DNA of 64,000 nt from Flavisolibacter nicotianae (GTDB lineage Bacteria; Bacteroidota; Bacteroidia; Chitinophagales; Chitinophagaceae): the NCBI RefSeq assembly GCF_003628535.1, contig NZ_RBCI01000008.1, forward strand, positions 124,001 to 188,000, in the 5' to 3' direction. The notes beneath the pieces are model-generated. The model searched no databases. It worked only from the letters and a program-made list of their open reading frames with translations, and was not told the DNA's origin. The position numbers and the translations under genes are program-made. This document shows positions 26,359 to 29,771 of the stretch, one piece after another. How positions within the stretch are numbered: position 1 is the first letter of the stretch; each line of letters opens with the position of its first letter.

Positions 26359-26435
26359 AGAATAAAAAGCCAGCACTATAAAAGTTGGAAGATTCTTCGT
26401 GAGGCTCCGTGCCTTCGTGGTTCAAAAAATCAAAC

Positions 26436-29400
26436 ATGATATACTCCGAACTCCAGATCACAACCAATTTTTCTTTTCTCCGTGGTGCGTCACACCCTGA
26501 GGAGTTAGTGGAATACGCTGCCGTCCTGGGCTATACTTCGCTTGCCGTCACCGACCGCAATTCAGTAGCCGGTGTTGTTCGAGCCCATGCGGCCGCCAAA
26601 AAGCACCACATCCGCCTGATACCAGGCTGCCGGTTAGCTCTTCTCGATGGCCCGGGGCTGTTGGCTTATCCCACTAACGTTCATGCATGGGCTAATCTTT
26701 GTACGCTTCTTTCCACCGGTAACCTTCGTGCGGAAAAAGGAGACTGTCATCTTTACAAGAAAGACGTTTTTCAACGGGGTGCAGGTCTTCACTTCATCAT
26801 CTTGCCACCCGAAACCCTCAACGAAGATTTTCATTTTGATCCCTCTTTCGAAGCGGCGCTCAGCGAATACAAAGCAGCGTTTGGCAACCAGCTTTCACTT
26901 GCCATAACCCGTCGTTACAACGGTGACGATGGCAAGCAACTTCACCGTCTGCGTCAGCTAGCAGAAAAATGTGATGTTCCGCTTGTTGCCACCAATGACG
27001 TGCACTACCATAACCACGAAAGACGGCAGCTCCAGGACATCCTTACCTGCATTCGCGAAAAATGCACCATTCACAATGCTGGCTTCCGTTTGCTTCCCAA
27101 TGCCGAACGCTATCTCAAACCGCAGGAAGAGATCTTTCGCCTTTTCCGCCGCTACCCCGAAGCCATTCAGCGTACACAGGAAATTGCTGCGGCCTGCCGG
27201 TTCTCACTCGACGAACTGAAATACGAATACCCCGAGGAGATTACGACCGAAGGCCGCACCCCACAGCAGGAACTGTCGCAGCTGGCCTGGAAAGGGGCGA
27301 TGGAGATCTTTGGCGAACCGTTGCCGTCTAAAACTGTCGCTGCCATCAACCACGAGCTGCAGTTCATCGAGCAGATGAATTATGCCGCTTATTTTCTGAC
27401 GGTGTACGACATTGTGCGCTTTGCCCGCAGCCGTGACATTCTTTGCCAGGGACGTGGCTCGGCAGCCAATTCTACCGTGTGCTTTTGTCTTGGCATTACG
27501 TCTGTCAACCCCGAAAAATTCGACCTCCTGTTTGAACGTTTTATTTCCGCTGCCCGCAACGAGCCACCCGATATTGACGTGGACTTCGAACACGAACGCC
27601 GCGAGGAAGTGATTCAATACATTTATGAAAAATACGGCCGCGACCGGGCTGCCATCGTGGCTACCGTCACGCAGGTGCACGGGAAAGGTGCCATCCGCGA
27701 TGTGGGCAAGGCCATGGGTCTTTCGGTAGATGTGGTGACCAAACTTTCCAGCCTCTTGCACCACTTCAGCGACGAAGCGATCAGCGATGCACACGTAAAA
27801 GATGCGGGTATGAACCCGGCCGATCCGCACCTGCGCAAGACACTGCAACTCACGCAGCAGTACATGGGTTTTCCCCGCCAGTTGGGACAGCACACCGGCG
27901 GCTTTGTCATTACCCGGCATAAGCTCTCGTCTCTTTGTCCCATCCTCAATGCCCGCATGCCGGGTCGTACCTGTATCGAATGGAACAAAGACGACATCGA
28001 CGTCCTTGGCTTTCTCAAGATCGATGTGCTGGCGCTTGGTATGCTTACCTGCATCCGCAAAGCGTTTACCCTCGCCAAACAACACTACGGTTTGCACCTC
28101 ACCCTTGCCAATATTGAGCAGGATGATGCAAGGGTTTACGACATGATCTGTGCTGCTGATACCATCGGTGTTTTCCAGATCGAAAGCCGTGCCCAGCAGG
28201 CCATGCTGCCGAGGCTGAAGCCGCGAACTTTCTATGACCTCGTAATCGAAGTGGCCATTGTGCGGCCCGGGCCTATCCAGGGCGATATGGTGCATCCCTA
28301 CCTGCGTCGCCGAAACAATGAAGAACTGGAGGAATATCCCTCGGAAGAACTGCGTGAAATTCTGCAGCGAACAAAAGGGGTTCCGCTTTTCCAGGAGCAG
28401 GCCATGAAGATCGCGATTGCAGCTGCCGGCTTTTCTCCCGCCGAAGCCGACGAACTGCGCCGCAGCATGGCGACGTTCAAACTACCGGGCAGGGTCAACC
28501 TTTTCCAGCAAAAACTGGTGAGGGGCATGATGGCAAACGGTTATGCAAAGGACTATGCCGAGCGGGTGTTCAAACAGCTTGAAGGGTTTGGATCCTATGG
28601 TTTTCCCGAGAGCCATGCTGCGTCGTTTGCACAATTGGTTTATGTTTCGAGCTGGCTCAAATGCTATCTTCCCGACGTCTTTGCCTGTGCCATTCTCAAC
28701 AGCCTGCCCATGGGTTTTTACCAGCCGGCGCAACTGGTGCAGGATGCCCGGAAACATGGTGTAAAGGTGCTGCCGGTTGATGTAAACCATTCGGGATGGG
28801 ATCATCAATTAGCCCCCCCGCCCCCCAAGGGTGGAGAGGCCTCCGCACCTTCCTCGCTTTGCAACGATGTTGTATCCAAGTTTGGTTCTTGCTTTAACGA
28901 GGGGTGTGAGTTGGAAAGCCCCTTCACCAAAGGGGTTTGGAGAGGATTTCCCCTGGGGGGGAGGGGGACTCTTCGTCTCGGCTTCCGCCTCGTAAAAGGA
29001 TTGCGGGAAGACGATACACGGTTACTCCTTGCCGGCAGAACGAGTGCTTACACCAGCATCAACGACTTGCGGGACGCAGGCCTTTCCGATGCGGCACTGG
29101 AACGGCTGGCCGATGCCGATGCTTTCCGATCCCTTGGGCTCGACCGTCGGCAGGCTTTGTGGGAAGTCAGTACGAAGGACCGTCCGCAGGCTCTCTTTGC
29201 CGGGCAGTCTTCACCCGATGCCGTTGGCGAAAATGTGAAACTGCCGCTGCTCCGGCCCTCCGAACACGTGGTACAGGATTATGCCACCACATCGCTTTCC
29301 CTCAAGGCGCACCCGGTTAGTTTTGTGCGGCCGCAGTTGGAGCAATTGCACGTGTGCTGCACCAAAGACCTTGCAAAATTGCAGAACGGGCAGCCCGTGA

Positions 29401-29771
29401 AAGTAGCCGGCCTTGTGTTGGTGCGGCAGCGGCCCGGCACAGCCAAAGGCGTATGCTTTATGACCATCGAAGATGAAACCGGTTTTGCCAACCTGGTGCT
29501 TTTTCCAAACGTGATGGAGCAATACCGCAAAGCCATCATTGGTGCCCGGCTCTTTCTCGCTGAAGGCACGGTGCAGAAAGAAGGCGAAGTGATTCACCTG
29601 ATCGTGAAAGCAGGCTACGACCTTTCAAAGCTGTTGCGCAAACTAACGGCTACGGGTAACGAAGACCTGCCTTTACTTACCCTGTCACGTGCCGACGAAA
29701 AAGTCCCGGTACAGGATCAGCGGGTGACGAAGCAGGAAAAGCTTTTCCCCGATGCAAGAAATTTTAAGTAA
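26436..29771 (+). CDS. dnaE2: Error-prone DNA polymerase DnaE2 with an in-frame repeat insertion
   Basis: This 1111-residue polymerase has a PHP domain (1-~270; begins with SELQITTNFSFLRGASHPEE), a palm with PDIDVDFEHERR carrying catalytic Asp, and FQEQAMKIA and GSYGFPESHAASFA finger motifs. A helix-hairpin-helix region and an OB domain near the C terminus (KVAGLVLVRQRPGTAKG) follow. ATG 26436 is preferred to the in-frame GTG 26409. Residues ~793-845, between WDHQL and LRLGFRLVKG, do not belong to the family: they are encoded by a palindromic C/G-run element (28812-28970) that keeps the frame. DnaE2 performs lesion bypass with ImuA/ImuB; whether the insertion is tolerated is untested, but flanking motifs are intact. 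Confidence 0.93.
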   Translation: MIYSELQITTNFSFLRGASHPEELVEYAAVLGYTSLAVTDRNSVAGVVRAHAAAKKHHIRLIPGCRLALLDGPGLLAYPTNVHAWANLCTLLSTGNLRAEKGDCHLYKKDVFQRGAGLHFIILPPETLNEDFHFDPSFEAALSEYKAAFGNQLSLAITRRYNGDDGKQLHRLRQLAEKCDVPLVATNDVHYHNHERRQLQDILTCIREKCTIHNAGFRLLPNAERYLKPQEEIFRLFRRYPEAIQRTQEIAAACRFSLDELKYEYPEEITTEGRTPQQELSQLAWKGAMEIFGEPLPSKTVAAINHELQFIEQMNYAAYFLTVYDIVRFARSRDILCQGRGSAANSTVCFCLGITSVNPEKFDLLFERFISAARNEPPDIDVDFEHERREEVIQYIYEKYGRDRAAIVATVTQVHGKGAIRDVGKAMGLSVDVVTKLSSLLHHFSDEAISDAHVKDAGMNPADPHLRKTLQLTQQYMGFPRQLGQHTGGFVITRHKLSSLCPILNARMPGRTCIEWNKDDIDVLGFLKIDVLALGMLTCIRKAFTLAKQHYGLHLTLANIEQDDARVYDMICAADTIGVFQIESRAQQAMLPRLKPRTFYDLVIEVAIVRPGPIQGDMVHPYLRRRNNEELEEYPSEELREILQRTKGVPLFQEQAMKIAIAAAGFSPAEADELRRSMATFKLPGRVNLFQQKLVRGMMANGYAKDYAERVFKQLEGFGSYGFPESHAASFAQLVYVSSWLKCYLPDVFACAILNSLPMGFYQPAQLVQDARKHGVKVLPVDVNHSGWDHQLAPPPPKGGEASAPSSLCNDVVSKFGSCFNEGCELESPFTKGVWRGFPLGGRGTLRLGFRLVKGLREDDTRLLLAGRTSAYTSINDLRDAGLSDAALERLADADAFRSLGLDRRQALWEVSTKDRPQALFAGQSSPDAVGENVKLPLLRPSEHVVQDYATTSLSLKAHPVSFVRPQLEQLHVCCTKDLAKLQNGQPVKVAGLVLVRQRPGTAKGVCFMTIEDETGFANLVLFPNVMEQYRKAIIGARLFLAEGTVQKEGEVIHLIVKAGYDLSKLLRKLTATGNEDLPLLTLSRADEKVPVQDQRVTKQEKLFPDARNFK
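28812..28970. repeat. 159-bp palindromic repeat element inserted in frame in dnaE2
   Basis: The segment starts with C7-G-C6 followed by AAGGG and ends with CCCCT-G7-A-G5, so its ends are imperfect inverted repeats. An inner small repeat CCCCTTCACCAAAGGGG lies at ~28919-28935. Length 159 bp equals 53 codons and leaves dnaE2 open. Similar C/G-run palindromes are common intergenic repeats in Chitinophagaceae-type genomes (my recollection). Residues encoded are low-complexity at the left end (APPPPKGGE) and unrelated to polymerases. Confidence 0.75.

Follow-up and report, generated by a model that had tools for sequence, protein, structure and literature searches.

Short palindromic repeats residing inside protein-coding genes have been described both in bacteria and in a fungal organelle. 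For example, the Rickettsia palindromic elements are, in the available part of their description, palindromic repeats of about 150 bp that belong to several families and are found in frame in unrelated protein genes (PMC10969869). Another example is that of the REPs, which have been reported in head-to-head pairs inside genes of DNA synthesis and repair, DnaE2 being named among them, and the same excerpt includes the Bacteroidetes among the phyla with CGTC REPs, which apparently lack a dedicated transposase (PMC3733652, available sections). In yeast mitochondria, the so-called GC clusters are mobile GC-rich palindromes with in-frame copies in var1 (PMC8811140, in the portion available). Regarding endonucleases, the accessible text of PMC3943268 lists homing-endonuclease families. 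Finally, the DUF559 protein VsrA of Caulobacter has been described as a Vsr-like PD-(D/E)XK protein, linked to DNA damage in cells without a cytosine methylase (PMC12907096, excerpted text).

In Flavisolibacter nicotianae (genome G000), a palindromic element has been located within dnaE2, in the stretch of 64,000 nucleotides analysed here (the window). The product of this gene is an error-prone DNA polymerase (NCBIfam PRK05672, well above the cut-off of 939 bits), and the ORF list of the window gives a single open frame that runs uninterrupted across the element. The preliminary description had proposed a palindromic repeat with inverted C/G-run ends, in frame in dnaE2, and this has been borne out: the arms at 28811-28831 and 28950-28970 are inverted, 21 nt long, 81% complementary and 118 nt apart. 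The parts of the locus are the following:

26409-29771, + strand: dnaE2 carrying the element in frame (ORF of 1120 aa; 1365 bits with PRK05672.1; orthologues in relatives)
28811-28970, no strand assigned: whole palindromic element (inverted arms; 9-residue empty site in G007 and G014; copies in the genome)
28811-28869, + strand: left arm, with C-run, hairpin and GCAC...CGCTT tail (full match to arm model R1, 62.8 bits, C64:152811-152869)
28870-28899, + strand: variable core between the arms (interval between the left arm and the second-subtype stretch)
28900-28949, - strand: inner right arm, of a second arm subtype, TCCCCAAACCCCT...GGGGCTTTCC (BLASTN matches elsewhere in the genome)
28950-28970, - strand: outer right arm end, inverse of 28811-28831 (inverted-arm match)

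With these parts, the dnaE2 copy is a composite, formed by a standard left arm, an inner right arm of the second subtype and an outer C/G-run end. The left arm is itself one of the 23 arms in the training set of model R1. The right arm was not recovered by the arm profile, with which its outer end (28950-28970), too short or diverged, scores 4.0 bits (E 5.6); positions 101-150 of the element, or parts of them, find BLASTN matches at C2:621863, C13:393270, C2:638439 and C2:303460. By itself, the dnaE2 palindrome is within chance for a composition so rich in GC runs, its self-inverted score being equalled by 46 of 500 mononucleotide shuffles and its fold (z -1.6) by 9 of 200 dinucleotide shuffles. 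What does exceed chance is the number of copies and the way in which their arms pair convergently, both described below. No clear target-site duplication was seen at dnaE2, the one site at which it was read, by eye, from the ortholog comparison, and a search of plasmid DNA with the element gave no match. The only match in Rfam was well under the gathering score (17.3 vs. 58.8 bits), and a reading at the RNA level was dropped.

In the congeners G007 and G014, the DnaE2 site is empty, and nine residues (EEQSGNHKA and EEQSGAYKA, respectively) are present between HQL/YTL and LR[LI]GFR. Positions 28812-28970 encode 53 residues in the dnaE2 frame, as the preliminary description had counted; nevertheless, the statement that exactly 53 codons are added has to be corrected, because these 53 residues stand in place of nine and the net gain is of about 44. 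In a survey of 80 named Bacteroidota loci, of which 70 were parsed and 10 were not, the linker has 8-11 residues in 67 of the 70 DnaE2 orthologues, and 15-20 residues in the other three, one with unread residues and another (L179) with a repeat-like TPSPQRGEG stretch; the five best named matches show 66-69% identity. Among nine aligned genomes, the site is filled in four (this one, G009, G011, and G016) and empty in five (G007, G014, G018, G020, and G022). Conservation of the 53 residues in orthologues, which would speak for ordinary polymerase sequence, is thus not observed, since the eight other aligned genomes are either empty or different at this point. The G009 insert, a TPSPSPQRRGE...SPSPTGRGGRG repeat, bears a slight resemblance to the element of dnaE2 (equalled by 5 of 500 shuffles). 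The inserts of G011, with a single VTLSAAEGG unit, and of G016, with four VTLSAAEG units, have a repeat in common whose likeness to the dnaE2 element is undetectable (equalled by 35 and 392 of 500 shuffles). Self-inversion is above shuffles in the G009 and G016 inserts (1/500 each) and not in G011 (469/500), in the window element (46/500, as above) or in the G010 insert of the tryptophan 2,3-dioxygenase (TDO) gene (57/500). A reading of the repeats at this site as all unrelated palindromes was dropped in view of the repeat common to G011 and G016, the slight likeness of the G009 insert and the partial self-inversion. In these comparisons, the linkers of DnaE2 and TDO are recurrent landing or tolerance sites. 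A second variable site exists near the C-terminus of DnaE2, where repeat-like inserts (e.g., SPFGEGRG in G009) have been seen in G009, G011, and G016 (L034, L035, and L037).

Other copies of the element, whose existence the preliminary description had left to a BLASTN check, are numerous in this genome. BLASTN with just the element locates 14 further places at E<=1, and 11 of these remain at E<=0.05; the arm pattern, with up to three mismatches allowed, gives 18 matches including the dnaE2 copy, vs. 0 for the reversed control; and the arm model, for which 150 of 1014 candidates were scored, gives at least 88 matches at E<=1 and at least 61 at E<=0.001, the dnaE2 copy being included. Among the matches listed, 26 pairs of adjacent arms lie within 600 bp (about 0.7 expected at random), and their orientation is convergent in 25 cases, tandem in one and divergent in none. 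The convergent pairs span 134-526 bp, the longest being the carrier of a DUF559 domain, and as short, multicopy units with terminal inverted repeats they resemble MITEs. Five of these 25 pairs are gene-internal and in frame, four give N-termini, eight lie between genes and eight have no open frame. The Pfam check of neighbours covered the pairs between genes, all eight of which are flanked by genes of different families, the eight frameless pairs falling outside it; at the intergenic pair of C1:744944, one antisense frame is open. Many long copies (230-420 bp; e.g., G000:C1:221130-221510 and C2:447646-447997) hold an inner hairpin of the type AAAGCCTCCATCA...TGATGGAGGCTTT, which may be a terminator. 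When the same arm model was used at E<=0.001 in 20 relatives, 25 matches came from G006, 6 from G003, one from each of four genomes and none from the other 14, which makes the arm type a young or lineage-specific one.

Seven gene-internal in-frame sites have been located through their open frames, namely dnaE2, recQ, a ligase-associated Lhr-like helicase gene (with two one-arm copies), TDO, nadE (coding for the NAD+ synthase), a fusion of the alpha and beta parts of the pyruvate-dehydrogenase E1 (PDH E1) and rlmD. Multiplied together, the probabilities of finding each of the seven stretches free of stops after shuffling give about 10^-6.5, nearly half of it coming from TDO; because the seven were selected by openness, this means an openness beyond composition and no more. 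No gene split out of frame by the element was found among the copies checked. In other genes (hisC, ilvE, leuB, and those of an HpnA-like epimerase, a nucleotidyltransferase and a GntR/aminotransferase regulator), the arms supply the N-terminus. Start codons have been noticed within or just before the arm in hisC (G000:C13:543072-543311) and ilvE (C2:510399-510601), as well as in leuB (C13:483560-483670) and a MocR-like regulator (C2:507857-507915), where the arm is part of the N-terminus. By eye, the first arm reached by the ribosome is in the same codon phase (APLPPKGG-like) in dnaE2, nadE, TDO, recQ, and E1, although the consensus arm is open in all frames.

The copy of the TDO gene is a nuclease-bearing form of the element, a type of relative that the preliminary description had not noticed. 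It is 526 bp long and encodes, between arms of the same family and in one frame with the host, a DUF559 domain (PF04480, Vsr-like). These arms score 61.6 and 68.4 bits with the arm model, whose training set includes both, and one of them is also found independently of the model by BLASTN with the dnaE2 element alone (E 1.4e-4). Alignments with solved TDO structures are split in two by the insert, and the DUF559 part matches the endonuclease-like structure 3hrl. A structure model of TDO was of moderate quality (60.8, pTM 0.51). The TDO site holds DUF559 in G000 and G006, a different insert at the same point in G010 and, by eye, none in 20 others. Between G000 and G006, the embedded DUF559 shows a pN of 0.145 and a pS of 0.783 (ratio 0.186, with pS saturated), the TDO parts show a pN of 0.034-0.047 and a pS of 0.62-0.81, and the linker plus right arm show a pN of 0.403 and a pS of 0.298. 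By this contrast, the nuclease is maintained as a protein, unlike the tail end of the insert, and the DUF559 of the TDO copy is under purifying selection. This genome also has a fusion in which DUF559 lies upstream of an amino-acid kinase.

DUF559 is present in 26 of 60 genomes of the family sample and in 78 of 148 genomes of the phylum sample, all genome comparisons being made with one genome per species and showing no movement of an element. In the family sample, the arms were analysed at 46 DUF559 loci (the 47 best of 69 hits minus G072:C65, a locus cut short), with a strand-oriented control that replaced a version which mixed strands and took up host homology. The mean inverted-arm score was 16.0, while permuted pairs gave a mean of 9.57 (sd 0.39) and, in 5000 permutations, a maximum of 11.1; 29 of the 46 loci reach a score of 12.5, vs. 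9.1% of mismatched pairs, and the remaining 17 lie below it. Almost half of these loci (22/46) are in frame, with 130 codons or more to each side, and a strict regular expression for the catalytic motif matches 18 of these 22 vs. 14 of the 24 others. In the phylum sample, 29 loci were taken as best-scoring, with no random draw, and the 27 examined (two were too short) have a mean arm score of 16.3, vs. 10.1 (sd 0.57; maximum 13.1) for permuted loci, 10 of them being in frame. In-frame, arm-flanked DUF559 elements are not rare in either sample, and the view that such an insertion is unusual for Bacteroidota is not supported. According to Pfam, the in-frame hosts include LeuRS, MetRS, MetH, AroC, adenine deaminase, and HsdR; one LeuRS holds two DUF559 copies, and by eye the domain recurs at the same sites in LeuRS and MetH. 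No splicing (Hint) or intein domain was found among the Pfam matches of the scanned DUF559 host proteins. In the HsdR ORF of G078 (L137), a GIY-YIG domain (residues 265-331) has been seen in frame with DUF559 (residues 466-571), and similar inserts may accordingly carry nucleases of other types.

DUF559 elements with the same arms as short elements exist both in this genome (TDO) and in G003. In the latter, a one-contig genome, near-identical arms, present in eight of the nine regions fetched, flank one DUF559 cassette, form two short pairs that lack the nuclease and stand alone in five cases. In the same genome (L339, G003:C1:2136000-2137200), the right arm downstream of the DUF559 cassette runs in frame, by eye, into an apparent fmt start (RIVFMGTPEF). 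Finally, DUF559 at E<1e-15 has been found in 15 of 18 hairpin-rich genomes vs. 7 of 42 others (p 1.6e-6), with no DUF559 match in the hairpin-rich G069, G074, and G075; rank tests on hairpins gave p values of 0.019, 2e-5, and 9e-5 with the 22 genomes at E<1e-15, and of 0.077, 0.0015, and 0.005 with all 26 genomes having a match. Because the patterns were chosen from DUF559 flanks, this association is partly circular and serves as support only.

The explanation that we favour, and regard as reasonably probable, is that the dnaE2 insert derives, as a MITE-like form without the nuclease, from palindromic elements that carry DUF559 and that persist in genes only if they are in frame. A dispersed element of this type would have landed in dnaE2, replacing the tolerant nine-residue linker, and would have been retained there, its GC-rich, stop-free arms and core happening to continue the frame. 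The insert would be translated as a Pro/Gly-rich loop, probably disordered, which may well be neutral for DnaE2. The DUF559 elements would represent the self-mobilising form, with the nuclease made either via the invaded host gene or alone; DUF559 would cut DNA at arm hairpins or at targets, repair would then copy the element, and short copies such as that of dnaE2 would be moved in trans. We infer this role of DUF559 as the mover of the elements, and the domain could instead be a passenger. On a broader scale, chances seem to us evenly divided as to whether there is a Bacteroidota-wide class of non-splicing, in-frame mobile elements, i.e., palindromic-ended DUF559 cassettes that invade conserved and often essential genes (LeuRS, MetRS, MetH, AroC, and TDO), are produced within the host protein as one of its internal domains, and give rise to palindromes without the nuclease, like that of DnaE2.

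The mobility itself might be explained in other ways. The elements could be ordinary REPs or REPINs moved by a RAYT (a Y1 HUH tyrosine transposase), with DUF559 as unrelated cargo; this genome has three Y1_Tnp matches, the pairing of the arms is REPIN-like, and intragenic REPs, including those in DnaE2 genes, are in print (PMC3733652, available sections). However, no arm at E<=1 was found in the three Y1 loci (L103-L105, 8-9 kb each), whereas the TDO-DUF559 locus has both arms, and a GTAG or CGTC tag lies within 8 nt of the hairpin, on either strand, in only 2 of 23 arms. Since the Y1 loci are devoid of arms and the REP tags are mostly missing, the RAYT route becomes the less likely one, and we consider it unlikely. 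It is also conceivable that nothing moved and that the arms arose from local slippage or gene conversion among GC-rich linkers. Slippage is common at GC-rich runs and hairpins, and the four VTLSAAEG units of G016, vs. one in G011, show a local expansion; yet arms of 60 nt are conserved at dozens of unlinked places, and near-identical ones occupy 8 of 9 places fetched in G003, which leaves this non-mobile origin as highly improbable.

Other alternatives concern the fate of the 53 residues. A normal polymerase would result if they were left out of the product, be it through RNA excision, protein splicing or ribosome bypassing. The arms are able to pair as a long RNA hairpin, and the GC clusters of yeast mitochondria include cases of bypassing (PMC8811140, portion available). 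Such removal would need no open frames, whereas no closed-frame gene-internal copy was found among those checked and the seven sites, albeit picked by their openness, are stop-free well beyond shuffled sequence. In addition, the host proteins have no intein domain among their Pfam matches, and the embedded DUF559 is under purifying selection in the host frame, so we find removal quite improbable. Conversely, the residues could be a functional, selected insertion that tunes the DnaE2 mutator polymerase, a kind of tuning on which the available text of PMC3733652 speculates and with which the recurrence of insertions in repair genes (recQ, Lhr-like, and dnaE2) would agree. We hold this to be very improbable, because the insert is absent or different in the eight other aligned orthologues, the same element family is found in metabolic genes and between genes, and the insert is modelled without secondary structure, albeit in a weak model (mean pLDDT 52, pTM 0.30, residues 795-839 under 50). 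The suggestion of the preliminary description that the element may alter a mutator polymerase is not supported here.

If the proposed Bacteroidota-wide class exists, its elements would be comparable to inteins that do not splice, and DUF559 would provide the mobiliser that intragenic palindromes devoid of a transposase lack; a nuclease enclosed by the arms and sharing their frame is a testable candidate for this function. Many Bacteroidota housekeeping enzymes would then contain an extra nuclease domain, which bears on annotation and on protein evolution by insertion. The case bears as well on how selfish DNA persists in essential genes without splicing, and it points to a little-noticed mobile DNA residing inside working proteins.

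With respect to the known systems, the likeness to the Rickettsia palindromic elements pointed out in the preliminary description is apt as regards the way of working: the family described here is also dispersed, palindromic, and in frame in unrelated genes, a likeness at the level of the description. It differs in the phylum and in that larger elements carry DUF559, whereas the available part of PMC10969869 names no nuclease-bearing form. As in the intragenic REPs (GTAG and CGTC), paired palindromic repeats are found inside DnaE2 (PMC3733652, available sections), although the arms described here mostly lack a GTAG or CGTC tag by the hairpin and have DUF559 as a candidate mobiliser. The yeast GC clusters are likewise mobile GC-rich palindromes with in-frame copies, but they belong to a fungal organelle and, in the portion of PMC8811140 available, have no nuclease inside the cluster. 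The REPIN-RAYT system shares the two inverted palindromic arms with a spacer, the dispersion, and the placement of a nuclease gene between such arms; in contrast, the nuclease here is DUF559 and not a Y1 transposase, the Y1 loci lack arms, and the elements reside in frame in genes. Homing endonucleases are similar in that an endonuclease gene is embedded in conserved genes and recurs at the same sites (by eye), but here no self-splicing part was found and the nuclease stays fused in the host protein; the EDxHD class of homing endonucleases resembles Vsr. The VsrA protein of Caulobacter has the same Pfam domain as the DUF559 of these elements, although the excerpted text of PMC12907096 describes no palindromic arms. 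The dnaE2 case alone is therefore already known in kind, both from in-frame palindromes (PMC10969869) and from REP-tagged DnaE2 (PMC3733652); the DUF559-bearing, in-frame element with palindromic ends, of which no example was found in the literature searched, is the new part.
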